Below, piece by piece: positions 25,241 to 34,130 of a DNA stretch of 54,679 bases. The notes beneath the pieces were generated by a model. The model ran no database searches, had not been told where the DNA came from, and saw only the letters and a program-made list of their open reading frames with translations. Each line of letters begins with the position of its first letter. Within the stretch, counting starts at the first letter, position 1. Origin of the DNA: Gracilinema caldarium (lineage in GTDB: Bacteria; Spirochaetota; Spirochaetia; Treponematales; Breznakiellaceae); contig NZ_JAJUHW010000017.1 in the NCBI RefSeq assembly GCF_029265695.1, positions 1-54,679 of the forward strand, in the 5' to 3' direction. Position numbers and translations under genes: made by a program.

Positions 25241-27424
25241 TTAGAAATGAATCCTTGTCTCAAATGTAATGGTTGGACTTGTTTTGTATTGTGGCTCTGC
25301 CAACGTTGGGCTTGTAGTCAGCACTGCATTGTTCGCAAGTACAACTGCAAAGTCAACCGTACTGGCTATGGGAACAACGATTTCACCTGAGAAAATAGTG
25401 TTTGCATCCACCAGAGGTTGTCCCTTGCTGATCGCATAGGCGAAACCGGTCCGTTCGTATGTGATGGCACCGGAAATGTCATAGAAGGGCAGAAGTCCTT
25501 TGTTGATAACCAGTTTTGCAAGGATATAATCCTGTTGAGCAATTACATCCCAGCTTGCATTTGAATCGGGACTCCATGGCATCATGTAACCTGCGGTAAA
25601 TACAATTTTGTCTTTAATCAGGGAGAAACCTGCTTCGCCGTATATGCCATTTACCGTTACATCGTTTGAAGCGTTTGTTGCAGTGAGCAGACTGTAGAAA
25701 TCCAGAGCGTATTTTACCCTGTTCCGTTCATAGGTATTGTCAAAGAAGGTTGGCCGATAGGCACCGCGGTAATACCGGTATTCAAGCCGCCAGTCTACCA
25801 TCAATGCCTTGCCCATAAAACCGGATACAAAGCCGTAGTTTCTGAATGCCTCGAAACCGCTGCCATACTCAGGATTGTAAATTGCCTGATACTGCAAACC
25901 CTCTTTGAGACTGCCAGCGGCGGTTCTATTATAGGGGGCTACCGCAGCTACATCGGCAAAGGCCCGGAGGCTCAAGAAGCTCAATTTCAGAATGGGGAAA
26001 TCAAGGTCCAGGGCAGACCCTATAATCATAGGATCGCCGATGCTGTCCCGTTCAGCCTGGGTCGCAAGGCTCCCTGCGGGATTAATGTCAGCTATAGCGC
26101 TTACACCAAAGAATGAGAGCAATTTAATGCGACCGCCGAAAATCTCAGGTTTTCCGAGATCATTTACAACCCCTTCCACTCCCCATGGACCGGCATCGTA
26201 GCCAGCGTTAATGCCAACCCGTCGTACCGAGGGGAAATCCGCGTCGTTGGCGAAATTCCGCATCAGGACTCCATGGCCGATAGTCATGTTCGAAAGATTT
26301 CCGACTTTGAAATACAGGGGGTCAACCAGAGGTTGTCCATACTCAATAAAGCGGATTTTAAGAGCCAGGTCCTGCAGCGCATCCAGGGCTCCCTGCGTTG
26401 GATCCGTATTCCAGTATTCGCTTCCGAAGGACCATTCATCGTTCCCATTGGGATGGTACCAGCTGTTGGGATTAAAGAGATCATTGGTATAAATGACAGG
26501 GAGATACAATCCCATTTTCAGTTTCCCAATGGAGAATACGGGTTGAATTACTGCTTTAGAATAAGTATTTCCATCGATCACCACAGAACCAATTTCAAAG
26601 CCCAGGATGTCTCCCAGCCAAGCCATGAGTTTTGATTCCTGGGCAGGCTTAGATGCTGGTTTTTCAGCAGTTTCGGAGCTAGGAGTGCTGGTCTCTGCTA
26701 CGGGAGAAGTTGTCTTTTCCTCAGATTTAGCCTTTTCCTCTCCCTGTGTGGTTTCTTCTTGGGGAACTGCAGCTGGATCTACCGCTTTGAATTCATCAAT
26801 ATCACCGAAATCATTGGAGAATTGTTCCGGAGTAAAGGGCGAAGGAATAAAACTCGGTCCGAAAACATCGGCAAATTGACCAGCGCCAACTAAAATCGGC
26901 TGCAAAGTACCATCAGCCAGGGTTTTCGCAAACTCTACAAGGCCCCGCTGTACATAGACTGCATCCCGGGCACCTTCTACAACAAGCATGCTAAAATCGG
27001 TTCCACGGACGCCGCAGACCGCGGTCGGTGTTTTTATCTGGTATTTATTGCTGCCGACTGTCTTTGCCGCTACGGTTCTAATTTTACCGCCAAGAAGGGC
27101 AAACTCGTTGGTATCTTTGCCTGCGGAACCCGCGAGGCCTTCTACCTTAAAGCTGGTATTCCGGGCTATTTTGATAATACTGCCGTTTGGATCCAGTTTT
27201 AATTCCGCGTTGGTGGCCAGAGTTTTAATTGTTTCTCCCGGCAGTATCTCGTCTCCGACATAGGCGCTGCGGATGGTCCCTCCGCTGGTCAGTATTTGGA
27301 TTGCTGTTTCATCGTCCGCATATACCAGGAGCGCTTTCGGTCCTGTCTGGGCAAACAGACCGTTTGCGACCACAAACAAAGCAATGAAAAATAATGCAAA
27401 AAATCTATTATGTTTTTGCAACAT
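25241..27424 (-). CDS. FecR-domain protein fused to an outer-membrane beta-barrel
   Basis: A 727-residue exported protein: signal peptide 1-25 (ending LFAQ), FecR domain about 40-185 (LPGETIKTLATNAELKLDP, TPTAVCGVRGTDF), a Glu/Ser/Pro-rich linker 225-262, then a barrel-like half from 275 that ends in TRIHF, an aromatic terminal signature. FecR domains usually sit in inner-membrane anti-sigma regulators or in cell-wall-binding proteins; here one is joined to a probable outer-membrane barrel. Residues 360-440 match the barrel encoded upstream (27440-28831), so the two are paralogs. AGGAGGA lies 6 bases before the ATG. No FecI-type sigma factor gene is near. Confidence 0.8.
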   Translation of the reverse strand: MLQKHNRFFALFFIALFVVANGLFAQTGPKALLVYADDETAIQILTSGGTIRSAYVGDEILPGETIKTLATNAELKLDPNGSIIKIARNTSFKVEGLAGSAGKDTNEFALLGGKIRTVAAKTVGSNKYQIKTPTAVCGVRGTDFSMLVVEGARDAVYVQRGLVEFAKTLADGTLQPILVGAGQFADVFGPSFIPSPFTPEQFSNDFGDIDEFKAVDPAAVPQEETTQGEEKAKSEEKTTSPVAETSTPSSETAEKPASKPAQESKLMAWLGDILGFEIGSVVIDGNTYSKAVIQPVFSIGKLKMGLYLPVIYTNDLFNPNSWYHPNGNDEWSFGSEYWNTDPTQGALDALQDLALKIRFIEYGQPLVDPLYFKVGNLSNMTIGHGVLMRNFANDADFPSVRRVGINAGYDAGPWGVEGVVNDLGKPEIFGGRIKLLSFFGVSAIADINPAGSLATQAERDSIGDPMIIGSALDLDFPILKLSFLSLRAFADVAAVAPYNRTAAGSLKEGLQYQAIYNPEYGSGFEAFRNYGFVSGFMGKALMVDWRLEYRYYRGAYRPTFFDNTYERNRVKYALDFYSLLTATNASNDVTVNGIYGEAGFSLIKDKIVFTAGYMMPWSPDSNASWDVIAQQDYILAKLVINKGLLPFYDISGAITYERTGFAYAISKGQPLVDANTIFSGEIVVPIASTVDFAVVLANNAVLTTSPTLAEPQYKTSPTITFETRIHF

Positions 27425-27439
27425 GAATATCCTCCTTTT

Positions 27440-28831
27440 TCAGAACTGAATCGAGCTCATGAGGCTCGATGTCACTATATAATTTCCAGTAGCGGGATCG
27501 TAACGTAGGTTGTATAACAGGCTTAAGACCGCAGGACCCGTTCTATAATTAATTTTAGCACCGATTACTGCGTTTTCAGGGCTCACAAGATCTTTCCAGA
27601 AGTTGCCTGTACCAATGGGACTTGGAGCGCCTAAATAGTATTTTTCATAGAGGGCGTCAAAAGAAAAGCCTGCGAGGAATCCCTCTGCCAAAGTAAATAC
27701 GCCGCGGAGATGGGGGTAGTCGGTAATGCGAGGATTGGTATCAGGGGCAGCCTTAAATGGCCCGTCCAGCGTGGCCTGGAATACGATTGCGTCGGAAAGC
27801 AATGAAAAACCGAGGTTCGCGAGCCAGCCAGCATATACGGAACCAGAGGCTTCCTGCAGGAGAGCCTGATATTTAAGATGCCGGAAAAGATCATAAGAAC
27901 CATCAAAATAGGTTGGAATAAAATCAGGTCCAAGGAGTCGGATCTGGGCTCCGTACAGCATGAAGCCCGCCAGTTTTCCTCCCACACCAACCATACTGCC
28001 CCAGCGGCCTTTGGGTTCAAAGGCAAGGTCTGCAAAGGCGGCCATGTTGACAAGGGGCGTACTCAGGACCGGCAATTTTGTGTCCACCCCTGCGATGGTA
28101 ACTGTGTCGGCAGAACCAATCGCAGTCCTAAAGGCATCGCTGGCATAGCGCAGCGGATCCGTATCTGCTGCGACGGTGGCTCCGATTTGCAGATTTTTAA
28201 GCAGCGGCATCTCGGTGCCGGCAAGGGGCCTTACATAAAGGCGGCTTCCAAAAACATCAAATTTTGCGAGGTTTCCCGCAAAGGTTTCGATTCCTACATA
28301 GGGAAAGTCTAAGAGCTGGCCATCCACATCCAGGGCGGCACCAAAAATTCGTGTTTCAGGAAGGAAGCGAGTATTGGAGTAGTTTCCCATAATAAAGCCG
28401 TTTCCCAGGGTGCCGTCATCGAAGGATCCGAGCTTTACAAAAAGGTTTTCACCCTTTTGGCCATAGCGGACATAGGCAATTTTGGGTAAATATAACTCAA
28501 AAAAGCTTTTTCCTGCTTTTTCAGGAATCCAGTCCGGTTCGTATATTTCTATGGCCATTCCGTTTTGCCCTGGTTTGATATTGAAATGCAGGGTAACATC
28601 CAGGCCTACACCAATCTTCCCAAATGAAATATCAGGTTTTAAGGCAAGCTTTTGATAGGTTGCCTGATTGGTACTGTCTGCAGGTGCAGTAGGATCTATT
28701 GGTAAGGTTTCTGTTCCCAGACCTAGTTCAAACTTAAACCCAAATGGTGACGCTGCATCGCTTCCTTCAGCCACAACAAAAGAAAGGCTGATAAAAACTA
28801 ATAGGGTGACGATTAAAAGCCTGTTTCTCAT
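27440..28831 (-). CDS. Outer-membrane beta-barrel protein, paralog of the FecR-barrel
   Basis: A 463-residue protein with a signal peptide (1-22, ending FVVAEG) and a barrel body ending in SSIQF. Residues about 125-190 (VRYGQKGENLFVKLGSF, TLGNGFIMGNYSN, then an R..G step) match the FecR-barrel gene downstream in order and spacing. I chose ATG 28831, behind GGAGG (28841-28845); an in-frame ATG at 28852 lies too close to the -10-like element. It is 15 bases ahead of the FecR-barrel gene, so they are co-transcribed. Pore or adhesion function is unknown. Confidence 0.75.
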   Translation of the reverse strand: MRNRLLIVTLLVFISLSFVVAEGSDAASPFGFKFELGLGTETLPIDPTAPADSTNQATYQKLALKPDISFGKIGVGLDVTLHFNIKPGQNGMAIEIYEPDWIPEKAGKSFFELYLPKIAYVRYGQKGENLFVKLGSFDDGTLGNGFIMGNYSNTRFLPETRIFGAALDVDGQLLDFPYVGIETFAGNLAKFDVFGSRLYVRPLAGTEMPLLKNLQIGATVAADTDPLRYASDAFRTAIGSADTVTIAGVDTKLPVLSTPLVNMAAFADLAFEPKGRWGSMVGVGGKLAGFMLYGAQIRLLGPDFIPTYFDGSYDLFRHLKYQALLQEASGSVYAGWLANLGFSLLSDAIVFQATLDGPFKAAPDTNPRITDYPHLRGVFTLAEGFLAGFSFDALYEKYYLGAPSPIGTGNFWKDLVSPENAVIGAKINYRTGPAVLSLLYNLRYDPATGNYIVTSSLMSSIQF

Positions 28832-28854
28832 ACAACTGGTCCTCCATGTCATTC

Positions 28855-28868
28855 ATAGTATACTACAA
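28855..28868 (-). promoter_or_regulatory. Copy 1 of a shared 14-base promoter element
   Basis: On the minus strand this reads TTGTAGTATACTAT, with a palindromic core TAGTATACTA containing a TATACT -10 box. It lies 24 bases before the barrel start at 28831. The same 14 bases recur before the giant protein gene (34117-34130). Confidence 0.45.
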
Positions 28869-28902
28869 AACTGCTTAAAAACCAGCAAAAATACCTATTT
28901 TG

Positions 28903-31900
28903 TCAGAATTGGACTTTAATTTGGATTCCCGTACTGCCAAGCAAGGTAAAGCTGTTTTTTTCTAAATTGTGGTCATACTGAGCCTTGCCGAAGGCGCTTA
29001 TGGTAAGGCGGTTGCGTATCCTTACAATAGACTCATGGCTTAAGCTTAATTGCCATGTATCAGAACTGCCCATATCTATCTTTGTTTCCAATGTCTCTTT
29101 TTGCAGCAATTCTGCCGGTGCTGCTGCTATTTCAGCAAGGCCGGGTATGCTGTTTTGCATCCTTGTATTTGATGAAAGGGTTCTGAAAAGCGCCCCCAAT
29201 AGGCTCTGAGAATTGGGGCGGGTCCAAGAGAGGCTCAGAGCATCAGACCAGCGGGTTTGCATAAGATTCAATGCATTGTTGATTTCTAGGCTAGACCCAG
29301 AAAAACCATAGAAGGAAGAGCGCTGCTGGAGGACCGCTTTCCATTCTTGCAGTATATAGTCGCTGTAAGTGAAATTAAGACTTAGCTGCTGTGAAAATTC
29401 ATCATCCCGATAAACCTTAAAGAGAGGGCTTTGGCCATAGGCTCCAAACAGATTGACCGCCGATGAGGCGACGCTGGTTTCCCAGGAAAGTTTATCCGTA
29501 TAGTTCGATAAATTCTGTTCAGCCCTTCTTGCTATTTTAGACTCTACCCTTGCAGGGAATATGAGGGCCCACGGATTTGCAGGGGCTGGGGCCTGAATAG
29601 AAAACGTGTAGCTATCAATAAAAGATAATGAACCCAGTCCGCTGCTTTGCCCATCCTGATTTAAAATGAAATAATCTTTGAGCTCTGGCGCAAAAAGCCC
29701 ATAAACCGGAGGAAACAGCACTATATTTTGATGAGCGCTGATAAACGACCCGTATTGGTCTGCATCAGTCCATAAGCTTGAGCCTGCGTCAGAACTATTC
29801 TGTTTAATCTCCCGGCGAAATCCCACATTTCCCTTAATGGGCGAAAAGATAAATGGAAATGAAAACCCGTAATGAATAGCCTGATCCGCAGCATTCAAAT
29901 TCTTCTGAGACCGGGAACTCATGACAGCATCAGCAGAAAAACCTAAAGGTTTAAGTTCTAGTCCGCTTTTTGCACCAAGAGTCCAAACTCGGCTTCGTGC
30001 ATCGAGCCCTTCGTCCGGCAAAAGACTTTTTATGCTTTCGGTCCATACAAGGGAGTATCCCACGCTGGTCCCGGAAAACGCCTCCGCTGCGCTGTTGATA
30101 TACGATAGATCCCCTGTAGAAGCTATAAAGAAGACTTTATTCCGGCTTTCAGCGCTGTATTTCCATTGGCGCTGAACAGTAACAATTTCCTGACTTGCCT
30201 GGGCAGAAAGGCTGGCTGTAAAGGACAAGTCGGACATGAGTATCCGCGGGATACTTACTTTTCCAGACCCCTGCTGCATATAACTTGTTTGGTCTAGGGA
30301 AAAACTGTTCTCGACTTCCAGAGGGCCTAAGGGGAGGGTAATGCGGTGGGCGCCGTTCCAGATAAGACTATTCTGCTCCGCGGTGATTCCGCCCCGCAGC
30401 TCTATCGGGCAGCCCAGGAGGACAAAGGCCGCAGAAGATTGGTTCTGAATGTTGGCAAAGGCTGAAGGGTAGGGGGCCTCCGCGGGAAGCTGGTACAGGC
30501 CTTCAGAGGAACTTAGAAGCTTAAGGTCAGTGAGGATGGGAACCTTGTTCAGGGATAGGAGCGGCCCTTTTTGATTCCACTGCACCGAGATGCCGCCCCG
30601 TCCCTGGAAGCTTGCAACAGCCTCGGTGAATAGGATCTCATCAACAGCAAAATTCCCATCGGGTAAGGTTGATGAACTATCCTGAGGTAAAAGATAAAAG
30701 GCTACATATTGATAAAGCCCCTCCGCAGTAGTTCCGCCGAGGCCCTCGGTCCCCGCGGGCATAAAAGTTACCGTTGCATTTTGTATGGACTTTCCATCTA
30801 TAAAAACCTGTTTCTGGCTCGTATTATATTGAATATCAAGCTTAGACCATTGGTCTGGGGTAAAGGTAGAAATGGGAATATGGGCCTGGATATGGGGGCT
30901 TGTGAAAAGGTCCAGGCTGGAAGACACGAGGATAACCAATGTGCCGCTATTTAGGCTTGTCTGATCCGTGTTTGCCTTCGGGCCCCGGACAAAAAGAGTC
31001 AGGTTTTTGTAATTTTCTGGCGGCGGCGCCAGTACCCGACTGTCCGCTCCGGCCCCTGTGCCGCCCGTGCTGGTGCCAAGACCGCTAAAGGAGACTTCAA
31101 GGATCCGCTGGGAAGCGCCTGCGGGATGGAGCTTGTCGATAAGTTCGCCGTAGCGGCTGCGGAGGCTCGAATCGTTACGTTCTAACGCATCGACCTGCGC
31201 ATTGCTCTCCGCAGCCGCTGGCCGCGGCAGCCCTCCAGAAACTACGATGGGCCGGGTACTGGCGCCGCTCACGACCGGCGGGCCTGAGAGGAGCCGGGTG
31301 TTCAGCGTGTAGCTCGTGCCGCTTGTAACCACCACAAACCGCAGGGCCCGGGCCCCAGCCAGGGCCCGCCGGTCGGCTTCGCTTAAGGTAAGGGTGGCGG
31401 TCTGCCATTGGGTCGGCAGAACACCGGCAGGATTAGCGGTTGCGCTGTCAAATATTTTCGCGGTAAGGACGATAGCGCTGTTTTCCCAGCCCGTGCCGCT
31501 TGAGCCGGTGCTGCCAGAAGCGGAACCAGCCGCGCCGTCCAGGGCGCCGATCTGGAGGTAAACCTGGACCGTTACACCCGATAATGAAGAGGGCACATCA
31601 TAAAACCGAAAGGGTATAGCAATTTGGCGGGCCCCCGCCAAGGCGCCTGCGGCATCTTCCATCGGTACTTGGAAGCCCGCCCAGAAACGGCTCTCAGTAT
31701 AAGTGGCTTCGCCGACTAAAACTCTTGTGTCCAGGGTGCTGTCGCTCACCAGGTAGGGGCCGGTTTTGTCCGGAATAAGCTGGGCTCCGTCCCAGTCAAT
31801 TCCGTGGAGTGTGCTGATGCCGAGGATGTCCGTAGAACTATAGGAACGGTAGACCAGGCCCGCCTGGTTATCTGCTGTTAGCGCAGGCAAAGGTGAGCGA

Positions 31901-34107
31901 TAATCATTAAGGCTTCGGGGTTCAGGACTCTGATAAAAGCCTGAAACAGGGAAGGGTTCGGCGTAACGGGCCCCTTCCATCCCTAAAATGCGGTATATAC
32001 CCGTTGTGTCTTCCTGCCGGTAGAAGAGACCCGCCCTGCTGTAAAGAGCCAGATGCTCCCAATCCCATCTGAGGCTTCCCGAAAGGCCCACTGTGCCGGG
32101 ACTGGTGCTGGAGCCTTCCGAAAATGCATCGGGGCTCACGTTCCAGCGCAGTCCCATGGCTAGTTCTGCGGAAAAGGGCCCCCCGCTCTGGTAGCTCGCC
32201 CCGATACCTGCAGAGAGGCTCCCGAAACGCCGTTCCTCACTCCGTTTGAGATATTGGATCCGTATCCGTTCCTGGTCTGACGGAGGACTCGCCAGACGAA
32301 CCTCTCCGGTTTCGCTGTCATAGCTTGCAAAGGGATCCGGAAGTCCGTTCCGGTATACCTGTACCGAGCCGGGAAGTACATCCTTTCCTATAAAGAGGGC
32401 TCCCGGACTACCATAGGTGGTAACAAGAATCGCTTTATAAAGGCTCGTAGAATTGGAGGCGGGAAGGTACAGCTCAGGGTGCTGATTGACCAGGGGCCAG
32501 CGGCTTTCGGTACTGCGGATGTCGTAGTCCTTCGTCGTATCCACCAATTCATAGATAGTTGCACCGGAGCTGCTACCGTAGGTGGTACTGCTTGCAGTAC
32601 CGCTTTCGGTACTAACATCAGCGCTGGTAGCAGCGCTGGAAGCTGTATCGCTGGTACTGCTAGAACCAGCCGCTGTGGCTGATGCTGTGGATGTAATGAC
32701 GCTATATGAAGAGAGGGGCTCCAGGGAAAAGCCCTTTTCAGGCTCCCCTGCGGAGCGGTTAACAAATTGTACTTTAGCAGAGGACCCCGCTTGGATCTGG
32801 TACCGGCTGAGACGCTCAAAGGGAGAGAAGGTACCCCGCTCCCAGATAACCAGGCAGCTTGTGCCGCCAATAGTCACCGTTGCAGGTTTGTTGTTGTCAG
32901 TCCCGATGTAATTTGTATCTTTCTGCCCCGGCTGCGGGTAGTTCCGGAGGGCAAACTTAACCGCACTGGAATTAAAAGCCCCCTGTGCCGCGCCGAGGAA
33001 ACCGTTGGCTCCCGCACCAGAAGTATCTCCGTAGGTGCCGAGGCTGCTTGACCAGGGGTTTTCAACTCCTCCCTTCCGGTAAGCCACGGAGAGGCGCTTC
33101 CCCGCCGCAAGGGCCGAAGGGCTGCGTATTTCAATGATTCCAAAGCGGGCGCTTGCGGCGTATTCGGAAGCTAAAGCTAATCTCCAGCGAGCCCCATATT
33201 CATCAATCTGGTCACCCTTGGGATCTTCAATATAGAGCACCGGGACCGTTTCGAGGTTTTCATCGGGGAGCACAAAGGAGTAGCCCCGGACCATGCTGGA
33301 AAGTTCGATGCTGCTTGTGCTTATTTCCCGGCTTCCGATGTAGTTTTTTTCTTCCAGTTTTGCCCCGTCGTAGCGGACCATGCCGTGTACGGTAAGCTGC
33401 GGTTGTTTATCGCTGTTCTGCGGCTTAGGACTCTTACTTTGGCTATCCTGGGCAGACGCCTCACTGGGCTGGCTTGTTTTTTCACCCCTGAGAATGTCAG
33501 CAAAGAGCCAGCGAGTATAAAAGCCGAAGGAAGAGGGGCTTGAGCCCCCCAGGTCCAGATATGGAAAACGGGGAAAATCGAGGCCCGTGTTGCCCACCCC
33601 AGCGTATTGCAGTTTCTCATTAAGAGTTCCCTGATAGCCTGCCCGGTAGGTATTGAGATCATAGTTATCTAAAAAGCTTGCTTCTAAAAACCAGCGGTCC
33701 TGGATCCAGAGACTCAAGGTAAGATCCGCCTTCTGGGTAAAAAGCAGGGGATTGTTTGTTGCTGCGGCTTGTAAGCCCAAATCGGTTAAGGCAAGGCCGC
33801 CCTGGGCAGTGAGACCCGCTTCCCAGGCCCCCTGGAGGAGGAGATTCACCGAACTGTCGTTTCTTGAAAGATTAAAAAGAGAAGGAGAAGCTTCCTCGGC
33901 CTGTCTTGATGGTATTGATGAAAGCCCCCCTCCGCCAGTAGCGGTAGTGGAAAGGCTGCTTCCCTGTACAAAAGCAGGTGAGGGACTGTCGATTTGCGCT
34001 TGAACTGGGCTCGCGAATAAACTCATGAATAAAATCAATATCAGGAAAAGAAAAATGGGTGAGTCTTTTTGTTTTACTGTGTGACAGATGCTTCGCAAAG
34101 AACCCAT
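28903..34107 (-). CDS. Giant exported protein (1734 residues), probable outer-membrane/surface protein
   Basis: The largest gene in the window. A signal peptide (about 1-37, ending SPVQAQ) is followed by long beta-rich regions, a Ser/Thr/Ala-rich low-complexity linker near 470-510, a glycan-binding/LamG-like stretch in the middle (rough guess), and a C-terminal third of amphipathic strands ending in KVQF, a barrel-like terminus. A motif of the type NGLPDPFASYDSETGEVRL suggests presentation domains as in very large barrels such as SprA, but I cannot claim homology. I start at ATG 34107, where the signal peptide begins; no Shine-Dalgarno. Central bases 31000-32700 are more GC-rich than the flanks. 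Confidence 0.7.
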   Translation of the reverse strand: MGSLRSICHTVKQKDSPIFLFLILILFMSLFASPVQAQIDSPSPAFVQGSSLSTTATGGGGLSSIPSRQAEEASPSLFNLSRNDSSVNLLLQGAWEAGLTAQGGLALTDLGLQAAATNNPLLFTQKADLTLSLWIQDRWFLEASFLDNYDLNTYRAGYQGTLNEKLQYAGVGNTGLDFPRFPYLDLGGSSPSSFGFYTRWLFADILRGEKTSQPSEASAQDSQSKSPKPQNSDKQPQLTVHGMVRYDGAKLEEKNYIGSREISTSSIELSSMVRGYSFVLPDENLETVPVLYIEDPKGDQIDEYGARWRLALASEYAASARFGIIEIRSPSALAAGKRLSVAYRKGGVENPWSSSLGTYGDTSGAGANGFLGAAQGAFNSSAVKFALRNYPQPGQKDTNYIGTDNNKPATVTIGGTSCLVIWERGTFSPFERLSRYQIQAGSSAKVQFVNRSAGEPEKGFSLEPLSSYSVITSTASATAAGSSSTSDTASSAATSADVSTESGTASSTTYGSSSGATIYELVDTTKDYDIRSTESRWPLVNQHPELYLPASNSTSLYKAILVTTYGSPGALFIGKDVLPGSVQVYRNGLPDPFASYDSETGEVRLASPPSDQERIRIQYLKRSEERRFGSLSAGIGASYQSGGPFSAELAMGLRWNVSPDAFSEGSSTSPGTVGLSGSLRWDWEHLALYSRAGLFYRQEDTTGIYRILGMEGARYAEPFPVSGFYQSPEPRSLNDYRSPLPALTADNQAGLVYRSYSSTDILGISTLHGIDWDGAQLIPDKTGPYLVSDSTLDTRVLVGEATYTESRFWAGFQVPMEDAAGALAGARQIAIPFRFYDVPSSLSGVTVQVYLQIGALDGAAGSASGSTGSSGTGWENSAIVLTAKIFDSATANPAGVLPTQWQTATLTLSEADRRALAGARALRFVVVTSGTSYTLNTRLLSGPPVVSGASTRPIVVSGGLPRPAAAESNAQVDALERNDSSLRSRYGELIDKLHPAGASQRILEVSFSGLGTSTGGTGAGADSRVLAPPPENYKNLTLFVRGPKANTDQTSLNSGTLVILVSSSLDLFTSPHIQAHIPISTFTPDQWSKLDIQYNTSQKQVFIDGKSIQNATVTFMPAGTEGLGGTTAEGLYQYVAFYLLPQDSSSTLPDGNFAVDEILFTEAVASFQGRGGISVQWNQKGPLLSLNKVPILTDLKLLSSSEGLYQLPAEAPYPSAFANIQNQSSAAFVLLGCPIELRGGITAEQNSLIWNGAHRITLPLGPLEVENSFSLDQTSYMQQGSGKVSIPRILMSDLSFTASLSAQASQEIVTVQRQWKYSAESRNKVFFIASTGDLSYINSAAEAFSGTSVGYSLVWTESIKSLLPDEGLDARSRVWTLGAKSGLELKPLGFSADAVMSSRSQKNLNAADQAIHYGFSFPFIFSPIKGNVGFRREIKQNSSDAGSSLWTDADQYGSFISAHQNIVLFPPVYGLFAPELKDYFILNQDGQSSGLGSLSFIDSYTFSIQAPAPANPWALIFPARVESKIARRAEQNLSNYTDKLSWETSVASSAVNLFGAYGQSPLFKVYRDDEFSQQLSLNFTYSDYILQEWKAVLQQRSSFYGFSGSSLEINNALNLMQTRWSDALSLSWTRPNSQSLLGALFRTLSSNTRMQNSIPGLAEIAAAPAELLQKETLETKIDMGSSDTWQLSLSHESIVRIRNRLTISAFGKAQYDHNLEKNSFTLLGSTGIQIKVQF

Positions 34108-34116
34108 GAATAGTGT

Positions 34117-34130
34117 ATAGTATACTACAA
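34117..34130 (-). promoter_or_regulatory. Copy 2 of the shared 14-base promoter element
   Basis: Identical in 14 of 14 bases to 28855-28868. On the minus strand TATACT (34119-34124) sits 11 bases before the ATG at 34107, with ATTACA (34141-34146) as a 16-base-spaced -35. The palindromic core could also serve the divergent DUF503 gene. Confidence 0.45.

Follow-up and report, generated by a model that had tools for sequence, protein, structure and literature searches.

A cluster of three genes in Gracilinema caldarium probably encodes (at a probability of about 0.6) the outer-membrane part of a reduced T9SS-like export system, in which a SprA-type pore is accompanied by an accessory pair of barrels. 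The genes were analyzed within a 54,679-nucleotide stretch of DNA (the window) from contig NZ_JAJUHW010000017.1 of RefSeq assembly GCF_029265695.1, a 3.04-Mb draft comprising 88 contigs. They encode a giant exported protein, a small barrel, and a second barrel fused to a FecR domain (the FecR-barrel). For this reading, the domain architecture, the paralogy of the barrels, the SprA fold, the gene order, and the co-occurrence of the giant with a C-terminal tag were computed.

Organization of the gene cluster

ORF calling placed the trio on the minus strand, with lengths of 1734, 463–470, and 727 aa for the giant, the small barrel, and the FecR-barrel (Table 1). The better-supported start of the small barrel is the ATG at 28831 (463 aa), which has GGAGG upstream and gives the MRN start conserved in relatives. 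With this start, the gap to the giant is 71 bases (50 bases with the 470-aa start), and the small barrel is separated from the FecR-barrel by 15 bases. The ORF coordinates thus bear out the original prediction of a tight same-strand cluster of three genes with gaps of these two sizes. Its statement that no ECF sigma gene is adjacent agrees with the scan of the ten ORFs annotated around the cluster, none of which is a sigma factor; the flanking clusters of relatives were annotated only in part.

Analysis of the upstream regions revealed that the 12-mer GTAGTATACTAT has exactly two matches in the window, compared with 0.02 expected, and that it is conserved before the giant and before the small barrel in related genera. 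In the first codons of the giant, which also contain TTTGCGAAG, the element TTGCGAAG is identical down to the wobble positions across genera, and this conservation at sequence level suggests an element in the DNA or RNA, or else a leaderless start. A search of the window with Rfam gave no support for an RNA element before the giant, its one match being a tRNA.

Table 1. Positions in the window of the three genes, their domains, and the associated sequence elements
Feature	Position	Strand	Details
Giant SprA-like outer-membrane protein (predicted)	28903..34107	-	1734 aa from ATG at 34107
SprA-colinear region of the giant (model)	30508..33891	-	residues 73-1200; SprA 129-1538
CBM-like jelly-roll insert of the giant	31258..31980	-	residues about 710-950; CBM27, mannanase CBM, FlaA1, Z 11-12
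Small barrel	27440..28852	-	470 aa; paralogue of the FecR-barrel
FecR-barrel	25241..27424	-	727 aa
FecR domain	26867..27337	-	residues 30-186; Pfam 73-164; motif TAVCGVRGTDF
Disordered Pro/Glu/Ser/Thr-rich linker	26642..26803	-	residues 208-261; 227-261 below pLDDT 50
Barrel, about 18-20 strands	25244..26620	-	residues 269-727
GTAGTATACTAT with -10-like TATACT	34117..34128	-	9 bases before the giant's ATG
Second GTAGTATACTAT copy	28855..28866	-	directly before the small barrel
TTTGCGAAG	34091..34099	-	inside codons 3-6 of the giant

Predicted SprA-type fold of the giant protein

The giant carries a signal peptide and ends in GIQIKVQF, with a terminal Phe as in outer-membrane barrels. Comparison of the protein encoded in the window with Pfam and NCBIfam gave no convincing family match. 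Among 27 relatives of the giant, the only recurrent family was TIGR04189 (T9SS translocon SprA), which matched 6 of the 27 with a best E value of 0.0019; the four matches that were located, in 12 relatives scanned again, all map to positions 163–256 of the SprA model. In this genome, TIGR04189 has no match. The SprA chains among the PDB sequences were also missed by four profile searches, run with full and regional profiles of the giant, and the identification therefore rests mainly on structure prediction.

We modelled residues 61–1200 of the 1734-residue giant as a fragment by AlphaFold, with a pLDDT of 74 and a pTM of 0.58. When this fragment was compared with 350,542 PDB chains using Foldseek, the best four matches were the only SprA chains listed (8gl6, 8gl8, 6h3i, and 6h3j), with E values of 2.2e-24, 5.2e-24, 9.6e-22, and 3.9e-13, followed by reelin at 1.9e-5. 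Alignment of the fragment to SprA with VIA-align gave a Z score of 13.1 with 817 residues in order, in which model residues 13–1140 correspond to SprA 129–1538. Across the SprA chains, the colinear alignment spans 693–817 residues. The superposition has an rmsd of 28.7 Å, a large value that we attribute to the cutting of the large barrel and to domain shifts; the SprA claim is therefore based on topology and on how far all other matches, other large barrels included, fall behind. Judged by the fold search and the weak TIGR04189 matches, the giant is very likely homologous to SprA. It corresponds to the SprA/Sov pore of the T9SS at the level of the fold, the curated sequence model TIGR04189 being weak at most. 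The original prediction had named it a giant exported protein and missed that, according to the model, it is itself a SprA-fold outer-membrane protein.

The CBM-like insert of the giant is followed by a second, CBM11-like jelly roll. The jelly-roll part (window positions 30792–32187) also matches the flagellar sheath protein FlaA1 (9cyn, Z 11.5).

Architecture of the FecR-barrel and its paralogue

The FecR-barrel consists of a signal peptide, a FecR domain, a disordered linker, and a barrel of 18–20 strands, as counted from the secondary structure of its model. This AlphaFold2 model, based on a 66-sequence alignment, has a pLDDT of 88 and contains a signal-peptide-like helix at residues 2–23, the FecR domain from residue 30, and no other transmembrane helix. 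The fusion of a FecR domain to a barrel was upheld by the match to Pfam FecR PF04773 (38.3 bits, cut-off 24) and by the OprD-like barrel of the model. In fold comparisons with the PDB, the FecR part resembles PupR (6ovk, Z 16.5) and BDI_1681 (4m0n, Z 16.7), and the barrel resembles the OprD/Occ porins (Z 13) and AlgE (Z 12). The PorV/FadL fold is absent from the best 50 fold matches of the paired-barrel search.

PupR is an anti-sigma regulator, and the match of the FecR fold to its cell-surface signalling domain would suit a signal transducer of the cell-surface signalling kind, with the FecR domain reporting the barrel's or pore's state to a partner in the inner membrane. However, the FecR domain directly follows the signal peptide, and both a cytoplasmic anti-sigma part and an inner-membrane anchor are missing; the ten annotated neighboring ORFs hold no sigma gene, and the alignment covers only about 137 of the 213 residues of PupR, as expected if no more than the FecR subdomain is shared. 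Such a transducer is thus highly improbable. A FecR-type sigma regulator is ruled out by the architecture, because there is neither an anti-sigma part in the cytoplasm nor an inner-membrane helix before the FecR domain. The FecR domain of the FecR-barrel is probably active in the periplasm, where it may be a cell-wall tether or a gate; the original prediction had suggested a tether to peptidoglycan or a sensor of its state. In two relatives (L115 and L116), the FecR domain has been lost, so that the barrel comes directly after the signal peptide; the barrel and its partner are kept, indicating that the FecR domain is not essential to the barrel.

Profile–profile comparison of the small barrels with the FecR-barrels by hhalign gave a probability of 99.9% and an E value of 8.6e-34 over 360 columns. 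The motifs YGQ/YGQ, GN/GS, TIGHG/TLGNG, MRNFAN/MGNYSN, and RRVG/RIFG are aligned between the two, and these include all the motifs from which the paralogy had been proposed. The small barrel and the FecR-barrel are true paralogues. On the three points at which the original prediction had exposed itself to refutation, the C-terminal half was modelled as a barrel, the FecR domain was present, and the two barrels were related.

Three Leptospira families show distant likeness to the pair. The ImpL63 model (NF047543) matches the small barrel with an E value of 1.4e-6, and the LipL45 and Lsa33 models match the FecR part of the FecR-barrel, all far below their cut-offs. ImpL63 has been described as inner-membrane associated (PMC2698987); if related to the small barrel, it may in reality be a barrel of the outer membrane that remains associated with the protoplasmic cylinder. 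A tandem duplication of the barrel pair was observed at L099:2211-9807.

Conservation of the cluster in Spirochaetota

A search of GTDB species genomes for the FecR-barrel yielded 126 relatives, which rules out chance ORFs and an isolated fusion. Among the 80 listed of these 126, all are Spirochaetota by name, except for 2 titled "bacterium". A phage or mobile origin was also rejected, with no relative found in viral contigs. The small barrel lies directly upstream of the FecR-barrel in 71 of 77 relatives, at a median gap of 15 bases, and in the remaining 6 the upstream side is cut by the contig end; the pairing is therefore not due to chance. The giant precedes the pair in 39 of the 62 pairs with at least 1.5 kb of upstream sequence, and the order giant, barrel, FecR-barrel also occurs in two genomes of other classes (G073 and G061). 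The search of other spirochetes for this architecture and its neighbors, as proposed with the original prediction, thus found both the pair and the trio order conserved. The trio is an ancient unit of Spirochaetota and not an oddity of this genome.

Around the trio, a mutL-like gene (read from sequence) often lies downstream of the block in relatives. On the upstream side, relatives have a conserved DUF503 protein, an ion-channel-like protein, and a further conserved protein, all read away from the trio.

With OprD/Occ and AlgE as their best fold matches (Z 12–13), the small barrel and the FecR-barrel could be plain OprD-type nutrient porins. This is improbable in view of their one-to-one pairing and fixed order with the SprA-like gene across the phylum; moreover, their identity to OprD is 6–9%, and a Pfam scan of the window proteins gave neither OprD nor any porin family match.

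Comparison of the distributions revealed that the giant is encoded elsewhere in the genome in part of Treponematales and that many genomes have the giant but no barrel pair; the pore therefore does not always require the pair. In Spirochaetia, the giant is present in 29 of 29 genomes with the FecR-barrel, and in six genomes of other classes the FecR-barrel is present and the giant was not detected. The retention of the barrel pair where the giant has moved away is consistent with a cell-wall tether, and so is the layout, in which a long flexible linker joins the exported domain to the barrel. The FecR-barrel would then be a porin that, like SLH-domain porins, fastens the outer membrane to peptidoglycan, in this case through its FecR domain, and the SprA-like neighbor would be historical only. 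We consider this explanation rather unlikely, as L115 and L116 keep the barrel after loss of the FecR domain, and no Spirochaetia genome with the FecR-barrel lacks the giant.

Co-occurrence of the giant with a C-terminal tag

TIGR04183 (T9SS type A sorting domain) exceeded its cut-off in 10 of 20 relatives, but FlgD_ig scores better. The long proteins matched by TIGR04183 end in a very conserved 95-residue domain, hereafter the tag. Its best family is FlgD_ig, with further matches to the C-termini of PorU, PorZ, and Por_Secre_tail. In the proteins inspected, the tag is located at the extreme C-terminus. The tagged protein is nearly always single in a Spirochaetia genome and has a length of about 900–7500 aa. 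At L136:1951-11226 and in relatives, very long exported proteins end in a strikingly conserved FlgD-Ig/CTD-like domain.

Searches for the tag and for the giant were run on the same 295 Spirochaetota genomes. Within Spirochaetia, the giant was found in 78 genomes, among them all 72 in which the tag was found (72/72), and no tag was found in the 33 listed giant-negative genomes. The 6 giant genomes without a detected tag include the assembly of this window, for which the tag search gave none; its close relatives have one. In the Treponema-like genus g44, the tag is present in 28 of 29 genomes with the giant versus 0 of 12 without it (Fisher p 1.6e-9, with genomes counted as independent and no correction for relatedness). 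Tag and giant are also present or absent together within other single genera such as g52. The distribution suggests the tagged very long protein as the candidate cargo of the SprA-like pore.

Searches for T9SS components

PorV_fam matches were obtained in 17 of 20 relatives, at up to 79 bits and below the cut-off of 90, and the match in this genome is a UPF0164 protein. The UPF0164 protein at L135:2759-4030 (G000:C34), which has a C-terminal TPR, appears as kin of the PorV/PorQ family (69 bits, E 5e-19), a relation of possible relevance to treponeme proteins of the FadL-like type. The wider UPF0164 family also occurs in spirochetes in which the giant was not found. A PorU-type C25 peptidase was found in 4 of the 295 Spirochaetota genomes, not including this one. 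One peptidase C25 gene (gingipain/PorU family, 741 aa) lies at G040:C1:2368092-2369168 and is absent from the listed relatives of this treponeme. The search for GldM in 20 genomes gave no match, but control genomes gave none either. With PorU missing and no sign of a motor in the search for GldM, the system is not a standard T9SS.

The absence of PorU and the CBM-like jelly rolls of the giant would fit a SprA-fold protein with another job, such as the export of lipid, lipoprotein, or polysaccharide, with the tag co-occurring because both were lost in reduced lineages. The reported distribution of the T9SS, with 60 systems in Bacteroidetes and none elsewhere (PMC4793230), points the same way. 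The joint presence or absence of tag and giant within genera such as g44 and g52 and the extreme C-terminal placement of the tag in the inspected proteins argue against such a job, which we regard as unlikely.

DISCUSSION

In the export system that we favor, the giant would form a SprA-type pore in the outer membrane and carry across it one very large surface protein with a C-terminal FlgD-Ig/CTD-like domain. The small barrel and the FecR-barrel, both OprD-like, would in part of the phylum be accessory subunits located next to the pore, taking the place held by PorV or Plug in Bacteroidota. The FecR domain would hang in the periplasm below the barrel on about 54 flexible residues, where it may hold the complex to the cell wall or gate cargo entry. 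Cargo export, a physical complex, and this role of the FecR domain are the steps that we infer. In its broader form, to which we would give even odds, the proposal is of an unrecognized SprA-type secretion in spirochetes: a minimal relative of the T9SS that would generally export a single giant tagged surface protein per cell. In part of the phylum, a paralogous barrel pair with one FecR-anchored or FecR-gated member would replace the PorV/Plug and PorU modules.

Comparison with known systems indicates both likeness and distance. Like SprA/Sov, the giant is a huge single-chain protein, predicted to lie in the outer membrane, that shares fold and domain order over model residues 13–1140 and co-occurs with proteins bearing a C-terminal Ig-like tag; unlike SprA/Sov, it occurs in Spirochaetota rather than Bacteroidota, its sequence similarity is almost gone, and it has 1734 instead of about 2400 residues. 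The spirochete partner barrels are OprD-like, whereas PorV of the T9SS is FadL-like, and the spirochete set is without PorU or a detected motor and usually has one tagged candidate cargo per Spirochaetia genome. The FecR part shares with the periplasmic FecR/PupR domain (6ovk, 4m0n) its fold (Z 16.5–16.7) and the GVRGT motif, but it belongs to a protein made of a signal peptide and an outer-membrane barrel, with no anti-sigma part, inner-membrane anchor, or adjacent ECF sigma gene. The barrel has about 18 strands, as in OprD/Occ and AlgE, from which it differs in its 6–10% identity, in the FecR domain and linker in front, and in having a paralogue and a SprA-like gene as partners. SLH-domain porins of other diderms have a layout of periplasmic domain, linker, and barrel. 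The FecR-barrel has this layout in common with them, with FecR instead of SLH and with putative cell-wall binding. Leptospira ImpL63 resembles the small barrel, and LipL45 and Lsa33 the FecR part, at the distant level given above.

The T9SS has been described as restricted to Bacteroidota (PMC4793230, PMC7463736). In the literature outside subscription journals and preprints, we found no report of SprA-like proteins in spirochetes, and the novelty is accordingly provisional. The genomes with the predicted SprA-fold pore and the co-occurring tag include complete genomes of a Treponema group resembling the T. denticola lineage. If the proposal is true, the T9SS-type secretion principle extends from Bacteroidota to a second phylum, Spirochaetota. 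Spirochete surface biology, in which outer-membrane export is poorly known, would gain a pore and a candidate cargo that can both be named, and in the FecR-barrel a domain familiar from signalling would have found a new use.
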